From: Methylophilus sp. DW102
GTDB lineage: Bacteria > Pseudomonadota > Gammaproteobacteria > Burkholderiales > Methylophilaceae
Direction of reading: 5' to 3'
Length of the DNA stretch: 64,000 nt
Assembly: GCF_037076555.1 (NCBI RefSeq)
Contig: NZ_AP029023.1
Location: 1,612,001 to 1,676,000 of the forward strand
Part shown: in pieces, positions 34,732 through 40,191 of the stretch
How positions within the stretch are numbered: the stretch's first letter is position 1
How the letters are laid out: the number at the start of each line of letters is the position of its first letter
Notes under the pieces: model-generated
Told to the model about the DNA's origin: nothing
What the model saw: only the letters and a program-made list of their open reading frames with translations
Database searches by the model: none
Position numbers and translations under genes: made by a program

Positions 34732-35517
34732 ATGGCATTTCTTGCTGGAAAAAAAATCCTGATTGCCGGTTTGCTGAGCAACCGTTCAATCGCTTATGGC
34801 ATCGCAGCCGCAATGAAACGTGAAGGTGCCGAACTGGCATTTACCTATCAAGTCGACAAACACGAAAAGCGTGTACGTGACCTGGCCGCAGACTTTGAAT
34901 CCGAGATCGTTCTCCCCTGTGACGTTGCTGAAGATGCACAAATCGACAACCTGTTTGTAGAGCTGGCTAAAGTCTGGGATGGCCTGGATAGCCTGGTGCA
35001 CTCGATTGCTTTCGTCCCTAAAGTCGCTCTTGATGGTGACTACCTCGAAAGAATCGACCGCGAGTATTTCCGCATTGCACATGATATCAGCTCCTACAGC
35101 TTCTCAGCGATGGCCAAAGCAGCCTACCCGATGATGCAAGGCCGCAATGGCAGCCTGTTGACCATCAGCTATTTGGGCGCAGAACGCACCATGCCTAATT
35201 ACAACGTCATGGGGGTCGCCAAAGCCAGTCTGGAAGCCAACGTACGCTACCTGGCACAAAGCCTTGGCCCACGCGGAATCCGTGTTAACGCTGTTTCTGC
35301 TGGCCCAATCAAAACGCTGGCTGCCTCAGGCATCGCTGACTTTGACAAAATGATCGGTTTTAACGAAAAACACGCCGCCTTGCGCCGTAACGTGACCATC
35401 GACGAAGTTGGCAATGTCGCCGCCTTCCTGACCAGCGACCTCGCCTCTGGTGTGACTGGTGAAATCACTTATGTTGATGGTGGCATGAACATCACTGCTG
35501 CTGGTCAAATCGACTAA
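34732..35517 (+). CDS. fabI: Enoyl-[acyl-carrier-protein] reductase FabI
   Basis: Last reductive step of fatty-acid elongation, using NADH. The 261-aa short-chain dehydrogenase has the FabI start [25 protein letters not shown], the catalytic Tyr-x6-Lys in [19 protein letters not shown], and the C-terminal [12 protein letters not shown]. An AGGAAC ribosome site precedes it. It is essential in most bacteria lacking other enoyl reductases. Its promoter was not found; it may lie in the end of the permease gene. Confidence 0.97.
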
Positions 35518-35533
35518 AGTTGACCACCTGCAT

Positions 35534-35570
35534 AAAAACGCCTGCGCTGATAAAAGCCAGGCGTTTTTTT
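35534..35570 (+). terminator. Rho-independent terminator of fabI
   Basis: Arms AAAAACGCCTG and CAGGCGTTTTT with a 13-nt loop and seven Ts, 17 bp past the fabI stop. Confidence 0.85.
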
Positions 35571-35809
35571 ATAGCTAAATGCCGAATACTTGCACTGCTT
35601 AATAACAATGCGCTAAATTGCACAATATCTTCAAAGCAATCAAAAAAATACAAACAAACCAATTAAAGGTGCACTAGAATTTAATTCTCATTTAATTATG
35701 GTGTAATAAAAATATATAATATATTGTATTTTAATTAAAATTTATTTTTTAATATTTATAGCCCCTAGTCTAAATAAAAGTTTAGGTTCGTTTTTGGGGT
35801 CTAATTAAC

Positions 35810-35816
35810 GTTAGAG
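35810..35816 (+). other. Integron core site, attI-like or half attC
   Basis: GTTAGAG preceded by TCTAATTAAC, resembling the right half of the attC sites in this array (TTAATTCAAAC before GTTAGG). The matching left half with TAAC is not found upstream, so this may be a remnant attI or a degraded attC. It marks the left end of the array. Confidence 0.5.
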
Positions 35817-35823
35817 CGCAACA

Positions 35824-36219
35824 ATGAAAATAACTGGGCATGCTTTTGAATGTGAAATTGATTTATCACTTCCCGACAGTGGGGAGTGGATGGATACCAA
35901 TGTCAAAGTCAAAACCCAGCAGTTTCAGGGCGCTTTTACATGTACTGTTCAAAAAAGTGAGTGGTTGTTGCTAATCAAAACACTCAAGAAACTTGATGCA
36001 TCAGTCGGTAAAAGCACTGAACTAAAATGGTCGAATATGGAAGAAAACATCTATTTTGAGTTCAAACTTAGTGCTTTAGGCTCTCTTGAAACAGAGTATA
36101 AATTTAGCTCTGAGAACTTTAGTGACGGTCCAGTTCTTTCGGGTTATTTTACAGCAGACCAAAGCTATATAGGAGTGTGGGAAAATTCAGCACGGCAAGA
36201 GGTAGAAAATGTTCTCTAA
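35824..36219 (+). CDS. Cassette gene 1: WapI-family immunity-like protein
   Basis: A 131-aa soluble protein beginning MKITGHAFECEIDLSLPDSG. The start pattern, the glycine/phenylalanine strand (QQFQGAFTCTV), the central WLLLIKTLKKLDAS helix and the C-terminal GYFTADQSYIGVW resemble what I remember of the WapI-type immunity family, which protects against a contact-dependent or Rhs toxin. I cannot confirm this by search. No toxin gene adjoins, so it would be an orphan immunity gene. Codon use is AT-rich. The gene fills its cassette, ending within its attC site. Confidence 0.6.
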   Translation: MKITGHAFECEIDLSLPDSGEWMDTNVKVKTQQFQGAFTCTVQKSEWLLLIKTLKKLDASVGKSTELKWSNMEENIYFEFKLSALGSLETEYKFSSENFSDGPVLSGYFTADQSYIGVWENSARQEVENVL

Positions 36220-36271
36220 CCCATCATTCAAGCGGGACGCCTAACGGCGCCCCTTAATTCAAACGTTAGGG
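36214..36271 (+). other. attC recombination site 1
   Basis: Runs from CTCTAAC to the core GTTAGGG. Inner arms AAGCGGGACGCC and GGCGCCCCTT can pair around a TAAC loop with unpaired bases, the single-strand hairpin form integrase recognises. It overlaps the stop of cassette gene 1. Confidence 0.8.
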
Positions 36272-36280
36272 GCTAATACT

Positions 36281-36763
36281 ATGATACTAAAGCATCGCCT
36301 CGCTATTACGGGTTTATTTTTCTTCTTATCTACTAGCTTTGTATTTGGTGAGTCTAGCTATGGAAATCCAGTAGATGGTCGCACATATCTAACCAATGGA
36401 GAATTTAAAACCTACAGTCCAGAGGGGCAAAATTTCGCCAAAAACGAGAAAGTAACTATAAGTAACGTCCGACTTCTAACTGGTGAGCCTGACTTGAAAG
36501 AAAGAGTCCTTGTTGAAGAGCTCGACTCATTTATTAAATCAGCCGAAAATGAGGCACATGCCATTTTGGCAAAAAATATAGCTCCAGCCCGAGTGCTTCT
36601 TCAATTCAACTGTCAACCCAATCATCATGTTGTACAAATTGCTAGTCAAGGCAATGCACAAGAAGCTGTACTGCATGAACTTTATGACAAGACAAAAGCC
36701 CTTACACCACTTAAAACCAGTGGTGAGGTAATTTTCCAGGTTGAGTTTAATGTTAGCCACTAA
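36281..36763 (+). CDS. Cassette gene 2: exported protein of unknown function
   Basis: A 160-aa protein I do not recognise. The N-terminus is a signal peptide (ILKHRLAITGLFFFLSTSFVFG), so the mature 135 residues should lie in the periplasm or outside. The mature part has a charged N-half, then a single cysteine in LLQFNCQPNHHVVQIASQG and a strand-rich end (GEVIFQVEFNVSH) that could form a small beta sheet. It begins 9 bp after attC 1 and ends inside attC 2. Typical of cassette proteins of unknown role. Confidence 0.65.
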   Translation: MILKHRLAITGLFFFLSTSFVFGESSYGNPVDGRTYLTNGEFKTYSPEGQNFAKNEKVTISNVRLLTGEPDLKERVLVEELDSFIKSAENEAHAILAKNIAPARVLLQFNCQPNHHVVQIASQGNAQEAVLHELYDKTKALTPLKTSGEVIFQVEFNVSH

Positions 36764-36868
36764 CCCATCCATCAAGAGGAACTGGCGAAAGCAATCTTCG
36801 ATGATGGAATTTTCAATAACGAGGGTGGAGCCACCAATGTCGCCAGCTCCTTATGTCAAACGTTAGCA
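36758..36868 (+). other. attC recombination site 2
   Basis: A long attC (111 bp) from CACTAAC to core GTTAGCA. The arms AGAGGAACTGGCGA and TCGCCAGCTCCTT are complementary except for single bulges, with a large variable centre between them. The CACTAAC overlaps the stop codon of cassette gene 2. Confidence 0.8.
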
Positions 36869-36873
36869 GTCTC

Positions 36874-37395
36874 ATGGAAGCCATCGACCAACTTCAGCGC
36901 CACTACATGATGCTTACGCTTGGTGTAGGTGAGATACAACCGTGCATCGACTGGGCAATTGAACGATTGGAGCTCAATCAAGAAGGTGATGATCTAGACG
37001 TTATCTTGCTTGCTGCAGCAACAGTACTAGAAGAAGCTTCTCCGTTGGCTCATACGATTTTGGAGCGCTACAAAGGCCCTGAGGCATTGGACAAGCAACT
37101 TGCTGCAGGAAAGTACGTGGCGAGTTTACGGCCTTTGCATTTGTCTGGCGCCGAGTCCATTGAGTCGCTCAATGGCAAGTTCACCAAACTCTTTGTCAGT
37201 CTTGGGTATCCAAATTGGCTAGTCATGCTCAGCAGAAACTGTGAATACGCTACCGACGTCGATGCATTCCGCGAGCCCTTCGAACAAGAGTTCGAGTACA
37301 TCGCAGATCTTTGGGGCAAGGCCAGAACACTCACTGAGTTTGAAGCTGCATACAGTCGAGAAGTATCGAACACTCATGATGCGAAATACTGCTAA
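36874..37395 (+). CDS. Cassette gene 3: hypothetical protein
   Basis: A 173-aa soluble, acidic, mostly helical protein (MEAIDQLQRHYMMLTLGVGE; later LSGAESIESLNGKFTKLFVSLGYPNWLVMLSRNCE). I do not recognise the family. The ATG at 36874 lies 5 bp after the attC core; a frame opening at 36853 lies inside attC 2 and is unlikely to be used. It ends within attC 3. The tidy one-gene-per-cassette layout is the main evidence that it is real. Confidence 0.65.
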   Translation: MEAIDQLQRHYMMLTLGVGEIQPCIDWAIERLELNQEGDDLDVILLAAATVLEEASPLAHTILERYKGPEALDKQLAAGKYVASLRPLHLSGAESIESLNGKFTKLFVSLGYPNWLVMLSRNCEYATDVDAFREPFEQEFEYIADLWGKARTLTEFEAAYSREVSNTHDAKYC

Positions 37396-37457
37396 CAAGT
37401 CCGTCAACCGGATGCCAAAATGCTGCGCTCCGGCGCCGATTAGGTCAAACGTTAGCG
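37390..37457 (+). other. attC recombination site 3
   Basis: 68 bp from TGCTAAC to core GTTAGCG, with internal GTCAACCGGATGCC and GGCGCCGATTAGGTC arms. It resembles the shorter attC types of chromosomal integrons in Gammaproteobacteria. It starts 3 bp before the end of cassette gene 3. Confidence 0.8.
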
Positions 37458-37462
37458 GGTTT

Positions 37463-37597: not shown

Positions 37598-38215
37598 ATG
37601 AAATGCACTCGTTATCAAGGCAGAATCACTACCTGGAAAGACGAACAAGGGTTTGGCTATATCACGCCCAATAGTAACGGAAAGCAAGTGTTTGTTCATA
37701 TCACTGCATTTTCAAACCGGCGGCGACGGCCGATTGGCAACGAGATTGTGAGTTATGAAGTCAGTAAAGATGCGAGTGGGAAATTAAAAGCCGAGCGTGT
37801 TCAATACATTGATGCACCATCGCGATCAAAGGATGGGCAGTTTCTATTCCTATTTGCCATCATTTTTCTTGTTTGCATGGCAATATCCGTTTTCGCCGGA
37901 AAACTGCCATTATGGGTGTTAGGGATCTATTTGCTGATGAGCAGTTGCACACTCATTGCTTACAAGCTGGATAAAAGTGCTGCAAGGCAGAACAATAGAC
38001 GTACCCCTGAAAAAACCTTGCATCTATTGGCATTAATCGGTGGCTGGCCTGGGGCCATTATTGGCCAGAAACTGTTTCGCCACAAATCAAAGAAGCTTTC
38101 TTTTCAAGTGATTTTTTGGGCAACTATTATTCTGAACTGCGCGACATTAGCGTGGCTGCTTTCCATGAATGGTCTCGCTTTTATAGAGCGCGTGATTAGC
38201 ACATTTTTAAATTAG
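37598..38215 (+). CDS. Cold-shock domain and DUF1294 membrane protein
   Basis: A 205-aa two-part protein: an N-terminal cold-shock (OB-fold) domain, residues about 5-70, with the RNA-binding motif KDEQGFGYI and VFVHITAF, and a C-terminal DUF1294 domain of about four membrane helices (about 82-200) with the family motif KTLHLLALIGGWPGAIIGQ and RHKSKKLSFQ. The fusion is known from many bacteria; its role is not established. It borders the cassette array but has no attC at its 3' end, so it is probably resident. Confidence 0.85.
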   Translation: MKCTRYQGRITTWKDEQGFGYITPNSNGKQVFVHITAFSNRRRRPIGNEIVSYEVSKDASGKLKAERVQYIDAPSRSKDGQFLFLFAIIFLVCMAISVFAGKLPLWVLGIYLLMSSCTLIAYKLDKSAARQNNRRTPEKTLHLLALIGGWPGAIIGQKLFRHKSKKLSFQVIFWATIILNCATLAWLLSMNGLAFIERVISTFLN

Positions 38216-38292: not shown

Positions 38293-40191
38293 TTATTCGT
38301 TACCTTTAGATAACAACACTTTGGCATTGAACTGAATATCTTTCTTGGCTTTGAGCGAAGCGACATAAGCATGTGACATCTCTGCCCCCAGTGCCATCTG
38401 ATACACTTTAAAGGCTCTGTCCGCCACATCTGGCTGGTCTTTGAGCTTCTGGTTCACCGCAATCACTTTAATCACGGTATAGCCTTTGTTGGCCTCGTTA
38501 AAGCCATAGTACGCTGGCAGTGTATGTATGTTGACCTTGAACACATTTCTCATCACACCATCGCTCAAGCCCTGCGCATTTCTGCGATCAACCGTCACGG
38601 GCGTAATCCAGTCTGCATTGCTTGCTTTACCGGCCTTTAGCTCAGCCAACAAGGCCTCGCCTTTTTGCTGCACCAATTTATCTGCGGCTTCAGCTTTGAG
38701 CAAGCCTTCAATACCGGCTTTAACTTCATCAAAGCTACGAGGCGCTTCTGGGCTGTACTCAACCACGCGTGCAGACACCAGGTTATTCGGTGATACCTCA
38801 ACGGCTTCGGTATTGCGTTTATCTTTAAGCACGTCATCGGAGAACACCAAGGAAGCAAAACGATCGCTTTTGAAGAACTTGGCGACTTCATCTTTGCTCA
38901 TGGCTGGAGAAGACTGCAATTGCAGGTTAAATTTCTTGACCGCTGGCTCCATGCTGCCAGATTGCTCATACACAGTATTGCCAAAATCATCGGCCAATTC
39001 TGCATATTTGGCTTGTGCTTTCTGGAACAACAATTCGGCTTTAATTTTGAGCTTCATCGAATCAAAATCAGAAGACTCGCCTGTAATGCCTGTCAGCTTG
39101 ATGATATGGTAGCCGAACTCAGATTCCACCAAATCGCTGATATCGCCAACCTTCATTGAGAAAGCTGCATCCTCAAAAGGCTTGACCATCGCACCACGGC
39201 CAAAACTGCCTAAATCGCCGCCCTTGCCTGCTGAGCCTGTGTCTTGTGAAAACTCAATTGCCAGCTTTTCAAAACTCTTAGGATTGGCCTTGACCTGCTT
39301 GAGAATGGACTCTGCCTTTTCTTTGGCAGCGGCTTTTTCAGCAGACGTGGCAGTGCTATTAAAGCCGATCAAAATATGGCTGGCCTGACGTTGTTCATTG
39401 CCCTGAAATTTAGCCGCATTTTCATCATAGTATTGCTTAACTTCTTGGTCAGTCACGCTGACTTGACCCATCAGGCCTGCAGCAGAGAGCAAAGCAAACT
39501 GTAACTTCACCTTGGCTGGTGCAATGAATTTAGTTTTATGCTGGTTGTAATACGCTTGTACCTGCTCAGGCGTCACCGTCACCTGATTCATAAAGTCAGC
39601 TACTTTAATATCGGTCACGCTGACTTCACGCTGTTCAAACTCGGACATCAGCGATTGCTCAGCGACTTTTTTCGGCATAAAGACCAGATTGCTCAGGCCT
39701 TCTCTTACCTGCTGGACCGCGAGGTCTTTGCGTATGCTCTGCTCAAATTTGGCTGGTGTCAGCTTGTTTTGTGTCAGCAACTGGTTGTAGGTTTCCTCAG
39801 AAAACTTACCGTTGCTTTGAAACTCGGGCATGCCAAGAATATGCTGGCTGAGTTGCTCGTCACTGATTTTAAAGCGGTAATCATGAATCGCACCCTCAAT
39901 CAGCCGACGTGTAATGATGCCTTCCAGCACAGATTGCTTGAAAGCCGGGCTTTCGAGCAAAGCCGTATCGACTTTTTGTCCCTGGGACTGCATATAGTTA
40001 CGCGCATTTTCCACGGCGTTAGAATATTCCTGCAGGGATATCTTCTGGCCATCAACTTTGGCCACTGCAACCTGCCCACCCGCCTGATTCAAATAGGAGT
40101 CGATGCCAAACAATGCAAACGGCACCACAATCAGTGCCAGAATGATTTTTGCCATCCATCCTTGTGTATGTTTTCTAAGTGCTTCCAACAT
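38293..40191 (-). CDS. ppiD: Periplasmic peptidyl-prolyl isomerase/chaperone PpiD
   Basis: Membrane-anchored chaperone at the Sec translocon that helps new outer-membrane and periplasmic proteins fold. The 632-aa protein has one N-terminal membrane helix (residues about 15-33, AKIILALIVVPFALFGI), a SurA-like N domain, a parvulin PPIase domain (about 265-365: QASHILIGF, GGDLGSFGRGAMVKPFEDAAF and SEFGYHIIKLTG) and a long C domain. Length and order match the family. Confidence 0.94.
   Translation of the reverse strand: MLEALRKHTQGWMAKIILALIVVPFALFGIDSYLNQAGGQVAVAKVDGQKISLQEYSNAVENARNYMQSQGQKVDTALLESPAFKQSVLEGIITRRLIEGAIHDYRFKISDEQLSQHILGMPEFQSNGKFSEETYNQLLTQNKLTPAKFEQSIRKDLAVQQVREGLSNLVFMPKKVAEQSLMSEFEQREVSVTDIKVADFMNQVTVTPEQVQAYYNQHKTKFIAPAKVKLQFALLSAAGLMGQVSVTDQEVKQYYDENAAKFQGNEQRQASHILIGFNSTATSAEKAAAKEKAESILKQVKANPKSFEKLAIEFSQDTGSAGKGGDLGSFGRGAMVKPFEDAAFSMKVGDISDLVESEFGYHIIKLTGITGESSDFDSMKLKIKAELLFQKAQAKYAELADDFGNTVYEQSGSMEPAVKKFNLQLQSSPAMSKDEVAKFFKSDRFASLVFSDDVLKDKRNTEAVEVSPNNLVSARVVEYSPEAPRSFDEVKAGIEGLLKAEAADKLVQQKGEALLAELKAGKASNADWITPVTVDRRNAQGLSDGVMRNVFKVNIHTLPAYYGFNEANKGYTVIKVIAVNQKLKDQPDVADRAFKVYQMALGAEMSHAYVASLKAKKDIQFNAKVLLSKGNE

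Follow-up and report, generated by a model that had tools for sequence, protein, structure and literature searches.

The interval between fabI and ppiD in the analysed window is supported by sequence comparison as an array of integron cassettes that lacks a neighbouring integrase. This array is headed by a copy of attI and is probably refilled in trans by the integrase IntI encoded 121 kb away. The window is the whole stretch of 64,000 nucleotides (C1:1612001-1676000) taken from a genome that consists of a single contig of 3.02 Mb and is labelled G000. Its relevant features are listed below.

34732..35517, + strand: fabI (enoyl-ACP reductase), left flank; FabI models are the top NCBIfam matches
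35700..35816, + strand: type A copy of attI that lacks intI, with the core G/TTAG at 35810-35814
35824..36219, + strand: cassette 1 ORF, 131 aa, WapI-like immunity family (PF24716, 37.3 bits, cut-off 27)
36214..36272, + strand: attC 1, short type (78.7 bits, E 1.1e-19)
36281..36763, + strand: cassette 2 ORF, 160 aa, without Pfam family
36758..36869, + strand: attC 2, long type (51.6 bits, E 5e-12)
36853..37395, + strand: cassette 3 ORF, 180 aa, without Pfam family
37390..37458, + strand: attC 3 (34.5 bits, E 3.1e-7)
37598..38215, + strand: protein with cold-shock domain and DUF1294, right flank (PF06961, 82.8 bits; PF00313, 42.6 bits)
38293..40191, - strand: ppiD-like peptidylprolyl isomerase, outer right flank (NF008054, 266.8 bits, below the cut-off of 493)

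The best match of the fabI protein to the NCBIfam FabI models has 429 bits and lies under the cut-off of 440. ppiD follows fabI in 21 of 22 genomes of the genus, and the remaining one (G011) stops at a contig edge. The original prediction had placed three attC sites in this interval, each overlapping the 3' end of a single gene. All three were recovered in the proposed check with an attC covariance model, which was built from 38 sites of related genomes with the window and its own genome left out. Searching both strands of the 64 kb at E<=10 gave exactly three matches, all within the array, and every site covers the stop codon of a single ORF (the ORFs end at 36219, 36763 and 37395). The bottom-strand folding energies of attC 1, 2 and 3 compared with shuffles (z of -2.07, -0.81 and -1.47) are weak evidence when taken alone. 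Therefore, the case for attC rests on the sequence-plus-structure model and on genome comparison. The predicted lack of an integrase between fabI and the array holds, since none is present in the ORF list and no intI similarity was found within 3.5 kb upstream of the core. As a description of the genome, however, "integrase-less" does not stand: the suggested search for intI elsewhere found one IntI over the cut-off, 121 kb from the array. With at least two attC sites and no integrase nearby, the array is a CALIN by definition. Of the features of a complete integron, attC-bounded cassettes and an attI head are present, and intI beside attI is absent. A scan for the cassette promoter Pc scored no better than shuffles and gave no prediction on the + strand of attI. 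At E<=0.001, the cassette 1 ORF has 8 relatives and the cassette 3 ORF 182, with short metagenome contigs being frequent among the best 120 of these 182. The toxin partner of the WapI-like immunity protein (35824-36219) is absent from the same cassette.

The left end of the array had been described as an extra core. The core is indeed present (GTTAGAG, 35810-35816), but it forms the terminus of a full attI copy. The stretch 35688-35814 is 78% identical over 127 bp (E 7e-20) to 1768952-1769078, which lies between the IntI gene and its first cassette. Given this homology to the intI-linked attI, the window array possesses an attI while lacking an integrase of its own. An attI profile matches at 35700-35814 and a 60-base profile at 35752-35815 (E 7e-17), and the resemblance covers about 116 bases, far more than the core. 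Overall, G000 contains five arrays. Each begins with an attI-like site that belongs to one of three types, and a single array has intI. Behind a dyad, all three types have ends resembling CTA-NN-TTACGTTAG. A genome search with the pattern CTANNTWNCGTTRK gave 6 matches, namely the five array heads and one elsewhere. As proof on its own, this core pattern was rejected because a reversed control gives 22 genome matches versus 6, and the longer homologies therefore carry the weight. The leader motif AGGTGYRVTAWAAA was also rejected as a common repeat, with only 2 exact genome matches. Type B accompanies an IntI in G013 and, in G061, a truncated IntI (91% identity over 167 aa), and type C is the attI of the IntI genes in G015, G016 and G019. 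A search with TIGR02249 found no intact type B or C IntI in G000.

In the whole genome, the attC model yielded 22 matches at E<=1. The regions 948-949 kb, 1173-1178 kb and 1277-1278 kb have 2, 12 and 3 of them, and the window has 3. The remaining two are an isolated site at 2126 kb (22.7 bits) and a partial match at 1149 kb (E 0.41). The two cassettes beside intI also have attC sites, recognised by eye, that the covariance model does not reach. At locus L106, G061 has a truncated type B intI, an attI and two ORFs; the G000 counterpart (L111, 2124-2128 kb) holds an unrelated inserted sequence and one weak lone attC.

The proposed comparison of the fabI-ppiD interval with a genome of the same species, G061, revealed a site-bounded replacement of the whole array, so neither of the two refuting outcomes named with the prediction was observed. 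Two homologous blocks of the window, 14665-35815 (21 kb, 98.1%) and 37433-63481 (26 kb, 98.4%), are separated only by the array. At fabI, G061 has three attC-like sites and cassettes that all differ from those of the window. The switch points are the attI core and the last attC core, with homology resuming at 37433, inside attC 3. From fabI to attI (35501-35815), identity between the strains is only 86%. At the type B array at 1173 kb, homology reaches exactly to the end of the attI core, and the unmatched stretch that follows is 4.9 kb long (2.1 kb in G061). At 1276 kb, homology ends 2 bp past the core and resumes 2.4 kb on (1.3 kb in G061). The intI-linked locus is aligned throughout, cassettes included (5.25 kb at 96.8%). 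Arrays were thus replaced at 3/3 intI-less loci shared by these strains, and the intI-linked array was unchanged. For the type C head at 948 kb, the match is limited to 143 bp of attI, at another place in G061.

Further pairs of genomes were compared. At fabI, homology breaks at the core for G000/G004 and G000/G005, 13 bp after the core for G010/G014, and 21 bp before it for G004/G005, where the G005 core is damaged. The G004/G005 break at typA lies at the core, that between G000 1276 kb and G005 1883 kb 9 bp after the core, and that between G000 948 kb and G014 2184 kb at the core end. Six intI-less loci gave 11 pairwise comparisons. In 10 of them, homology on the left side stops close to the attI core, with nine ending at the core or at most 13 bp after it and one before the damaged core. 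In the eleventh, the mutL pair G008/G011, homology is already gone before attI. All six genomes with an attI after fabI lack an intI trace at this locus. They have the leader from fabI to attI in common, and the compared pairs among them share no attI-proximal cassette.

Cassettes were compared among 31 arrays, considering matches of at least 170 bp. Single cassettes with cassette-exact ends are common to arrays at unrelated loci. Such cassettes are shared by the G004 fabI and G008 intI arrays (94.4%, 479 bp), by the intI-linked and the intI-less mutL array within G008 (96.4%, 333 bp), and by the G000 1173 kb and G020 intI arrays (95.2%, 433 bp). The first cassette of the intI-less 948 kb array of G000 also occurs in the C2 array of G003 with 99.5% identity over 375 bp; the fabI genes of these two genomes are 82% identical. 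For the three cassettes of the window, no match of at least 170 bp was found in the other 30 arrays. Taken together, the alignments demonstrate site homology, sharp boundaries, turnover at intI-less loci, and cassettes common to intI-linked and intI-less arrays. In G061, an intI split over two frames as assembled (L107:4874-5832) lies beside an array, and this array and the 1173 kb array of G000 have a 477 bp cassette in common (95%).

The IntI of G000 has 331 aa and reaches 409 bits with TIGR02249 (cut-off 265), and it is the only integron integrase of the genome over this cut-off. Compared to the IntI of the same-species strain, dN is 0.009 and dS 0.107, and the protein is under purifying selection between these two strains. 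The usual catalytic set of integron integrases comprises two Arg, two His including that of the HxxR box, and Tyr. In the alignment, the first Arg, second Arg, second His and Tyr line up, and the HxxR box reads NTLR; the G000 IntI hence deviates from the usual set by Asn for His. Its gene (L018:5087-6082) belongs to a lineage with this replacement in seven genomes, the others being G061, G002, G003, G004, G009 and G010. G011 has Gln at this position, eight other type A genomes have His, and G009 also has Lys replacing the first Arg. The number of attC sites (E<=0.001) does not clearly fall with Asn in HxxR, with counts of 19 in G000, 19 in G003, 1 in G010, 4 in G009 and 6 in G004.

Across the genus, 46 distinct attI sites were collected from fetched loci of 18 genomes, a non-random sample chosen for holding sites. 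Applying a threshold of E<=0.01 for intI traces within 1.5 to 3.5 kb upstream, depending on the stretch, 16 sites have an open intI and 4 have a remnant, one of which is weak (E 0.004); the other 26 show no similarity. The remnants adjoin attI in G061, G004, G005 and G017. Only the longer profile detected two further intI-linked attI copies, in G009 and G011, whose cores are damaged. A universal presence of attI heads was rejected, as seven attC arrays of the genus (L080, L107, L127, L131, L132, L134 and L135) do not match any of three attI profiles. In G017 and G031, an IntI over the cut-off is absent, yet attC arrays with attI-like heads are present, so a head does not prove activity. In G017, the profiles match just part of the heads, and the genome does not contain the core pattern, as expected if heads decay without an enzyme. 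The G031 core is intact, which means that an intact core does not prove use.

A single origin of the attI after fabI was examined on a tree of fabI and ppiD; 6 of 22 genomes carry this attI, which requires 4 changes, a number as low in 46 of 500 shuffles. Possible leader remnants after fabI have profile scores of 2.5-11.9 in the array-less genomes G003, G007, G008, G009 and G020, where none of 40 shuffles scored as high; the score in array-less G002 is 0.6 (2 of 40 as high), and the profile found nothing in array-less G013 and G017. An ancestral attI head after fabI is thereby suggested for some array-less genomes.

The most probable explanation is that cassettes would enter the window array at the attI core at 35810 and leave at the attC sites through recombination by IntI. 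The acting enzyme would be the one encoded 121 kb away, and we infer its action in trans at the window attI. G000 would then carry a distributed integron of five attI-headed arrays, three attI types and one integrase, which would have to accept attI types B and C as well. Some heads may be former ordinary intI-attI units whose intI has decayed. Several findings count against action in trans: the intI-linked array, nearest to the enzyme, did not change between the strains, IntI has NTLR, the fabI attI drifts, and the window cassettes are unmatched elsewhere. The headed arrays of G017 and G031 and the missing type B and C IntI also weigh against it. Between G000 and G061, the attI core differs at 7 of 58 positions at fabI, at 0 in the intI-linked site, and at 2 and 3 in two type B sites. 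Therefore, constraint on the fabI attI is not seen, and the drift of a relic would look the same.

Another possibility is a fossil array. In this case, intI would have disappeared long ago, the attI would be a relic in decay, and whole arrays would have been imported homologously across conserved flanks from other strains. Such an origin could account for the drift of the fabI attI at about the neutral rate (fabI dS 0.149), the low identity of the interval before it, the IntI remnants at 4 of 46 attI sites, and the state of G017. It is nevertheless unlikely, given that the flanks are uniformly about 98% identical without a wide imported tract, that single cassettes with exact ends are common to unrelated loci, and that one strain pair shows changes at three loci but none at the intI-linked locus. 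Exchange while intI was still in cis, followed by a separate loss in each lineage, would agree with the intI wrecks adjoining attI in four genomes. It is very improbable, since the six fabI-attI genomes with a common leader and no intI similarity would need repeated clean losses. Off-target insertion by IntI at a chance genomic site (attG) is a known process and has been proposed as one source of such arrays (PMC8618304, PMC12444791); the head should then be unrelated to attI, and its long match to the intI-linked attI makes this origin even harder to credit. That the sites are chance matches or another repeat would fit only their unremarkable folding energies, and it is dismissed in view of the E-values, the three sole matches in 64 kb and the cassette-bounded replacement.

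Refilling in trans raises the wider proposal that a distributed integron is the rule in Methylophilus, and perhaps in other Methylophilaceae. A single integrase would serve several attI platforms of up to three types, fixed beside housekeeping genes, with turnover mainly at platforms without their own integrase; for this general form, the chances are about even. CALINs have been described as degraded integrons (PMC9024848) and as mobilisable in trans (PMC12444791). Compared to this class, the window array has a recognisable attI head, a conserved locus that different species have in common, and content that was turned over. The genome resembles a sedentary chromosomal integron in its attI, attC array, cassettes of mostly unknown function and single IntI, but here the integrase is not in cis and several attI-headed arrays lie on one chromosome. 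In Xanthomonas, too, intI has a single locus, and CALINs away from ilvD occupy other, relatively conserved places, but the available text interprets them as past activity and does not report attI heads (PMC12444791). The delta-attI gene cassettes of class 1 and 2 integrons likewise have attI sequence outside its usual place (PMC12901181); there, attI pieces replace attC within an array, whereas here attI copies head separate chromosomal arrays. Other proposed origins of integrase-less arrays are intI loss and rearrangement (PMC8618304). The accessible parts of studies on Shewanella (PMC9229058) and Treponema (PMC3607928) do not show such heads, and attI-headed arrays without intI were not found in titles and abstracts of the open-licence literature. 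Mobile cassettes had been called little described in this family; their attC sites are already in print, placed in a marine clade (PMC11089894), and for small insertions of pelagic Methylophilaceae the consulted sections report that bona fide integrons were not found (PMC10872708). Since attI is poorly described outside class 1 and undetected by a common finder (PMC9024848), such heads may be overlooked elsewhere. How integrase-less arrays arise and whether they still work becomes testable through recognisable heads and arrays that differ between close strains, as the genus is culturable and offers natural before-and-after pairs.

Heads lie downstream of and in line with conserved genes, namely typA, mutL, fabI, moaC and genes for a Nudix hydrolase and a NodT-type outer membrane efflux protein (L065, L066, L069, L020, L106, and 34732-35517 of the window). 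In G013, a transposase-like ORF identified by eye stops 8 bp before a truncated attI (L073:2887-3973) and is probably an insertion that removed the attI leader. G022, from another genus, has one IntI over the cut-off with an adjoining attI. It also has a near-identical attI with attC sites and without intI, another that comes with a fragment of intI, and a single type C-like head. Two of its loci (L138/L139) carry a near-identical attI of ~58 bp, with homology stopping abruptly at GTTTATACACC on the left, which hints that the attI core itself may have been copied.
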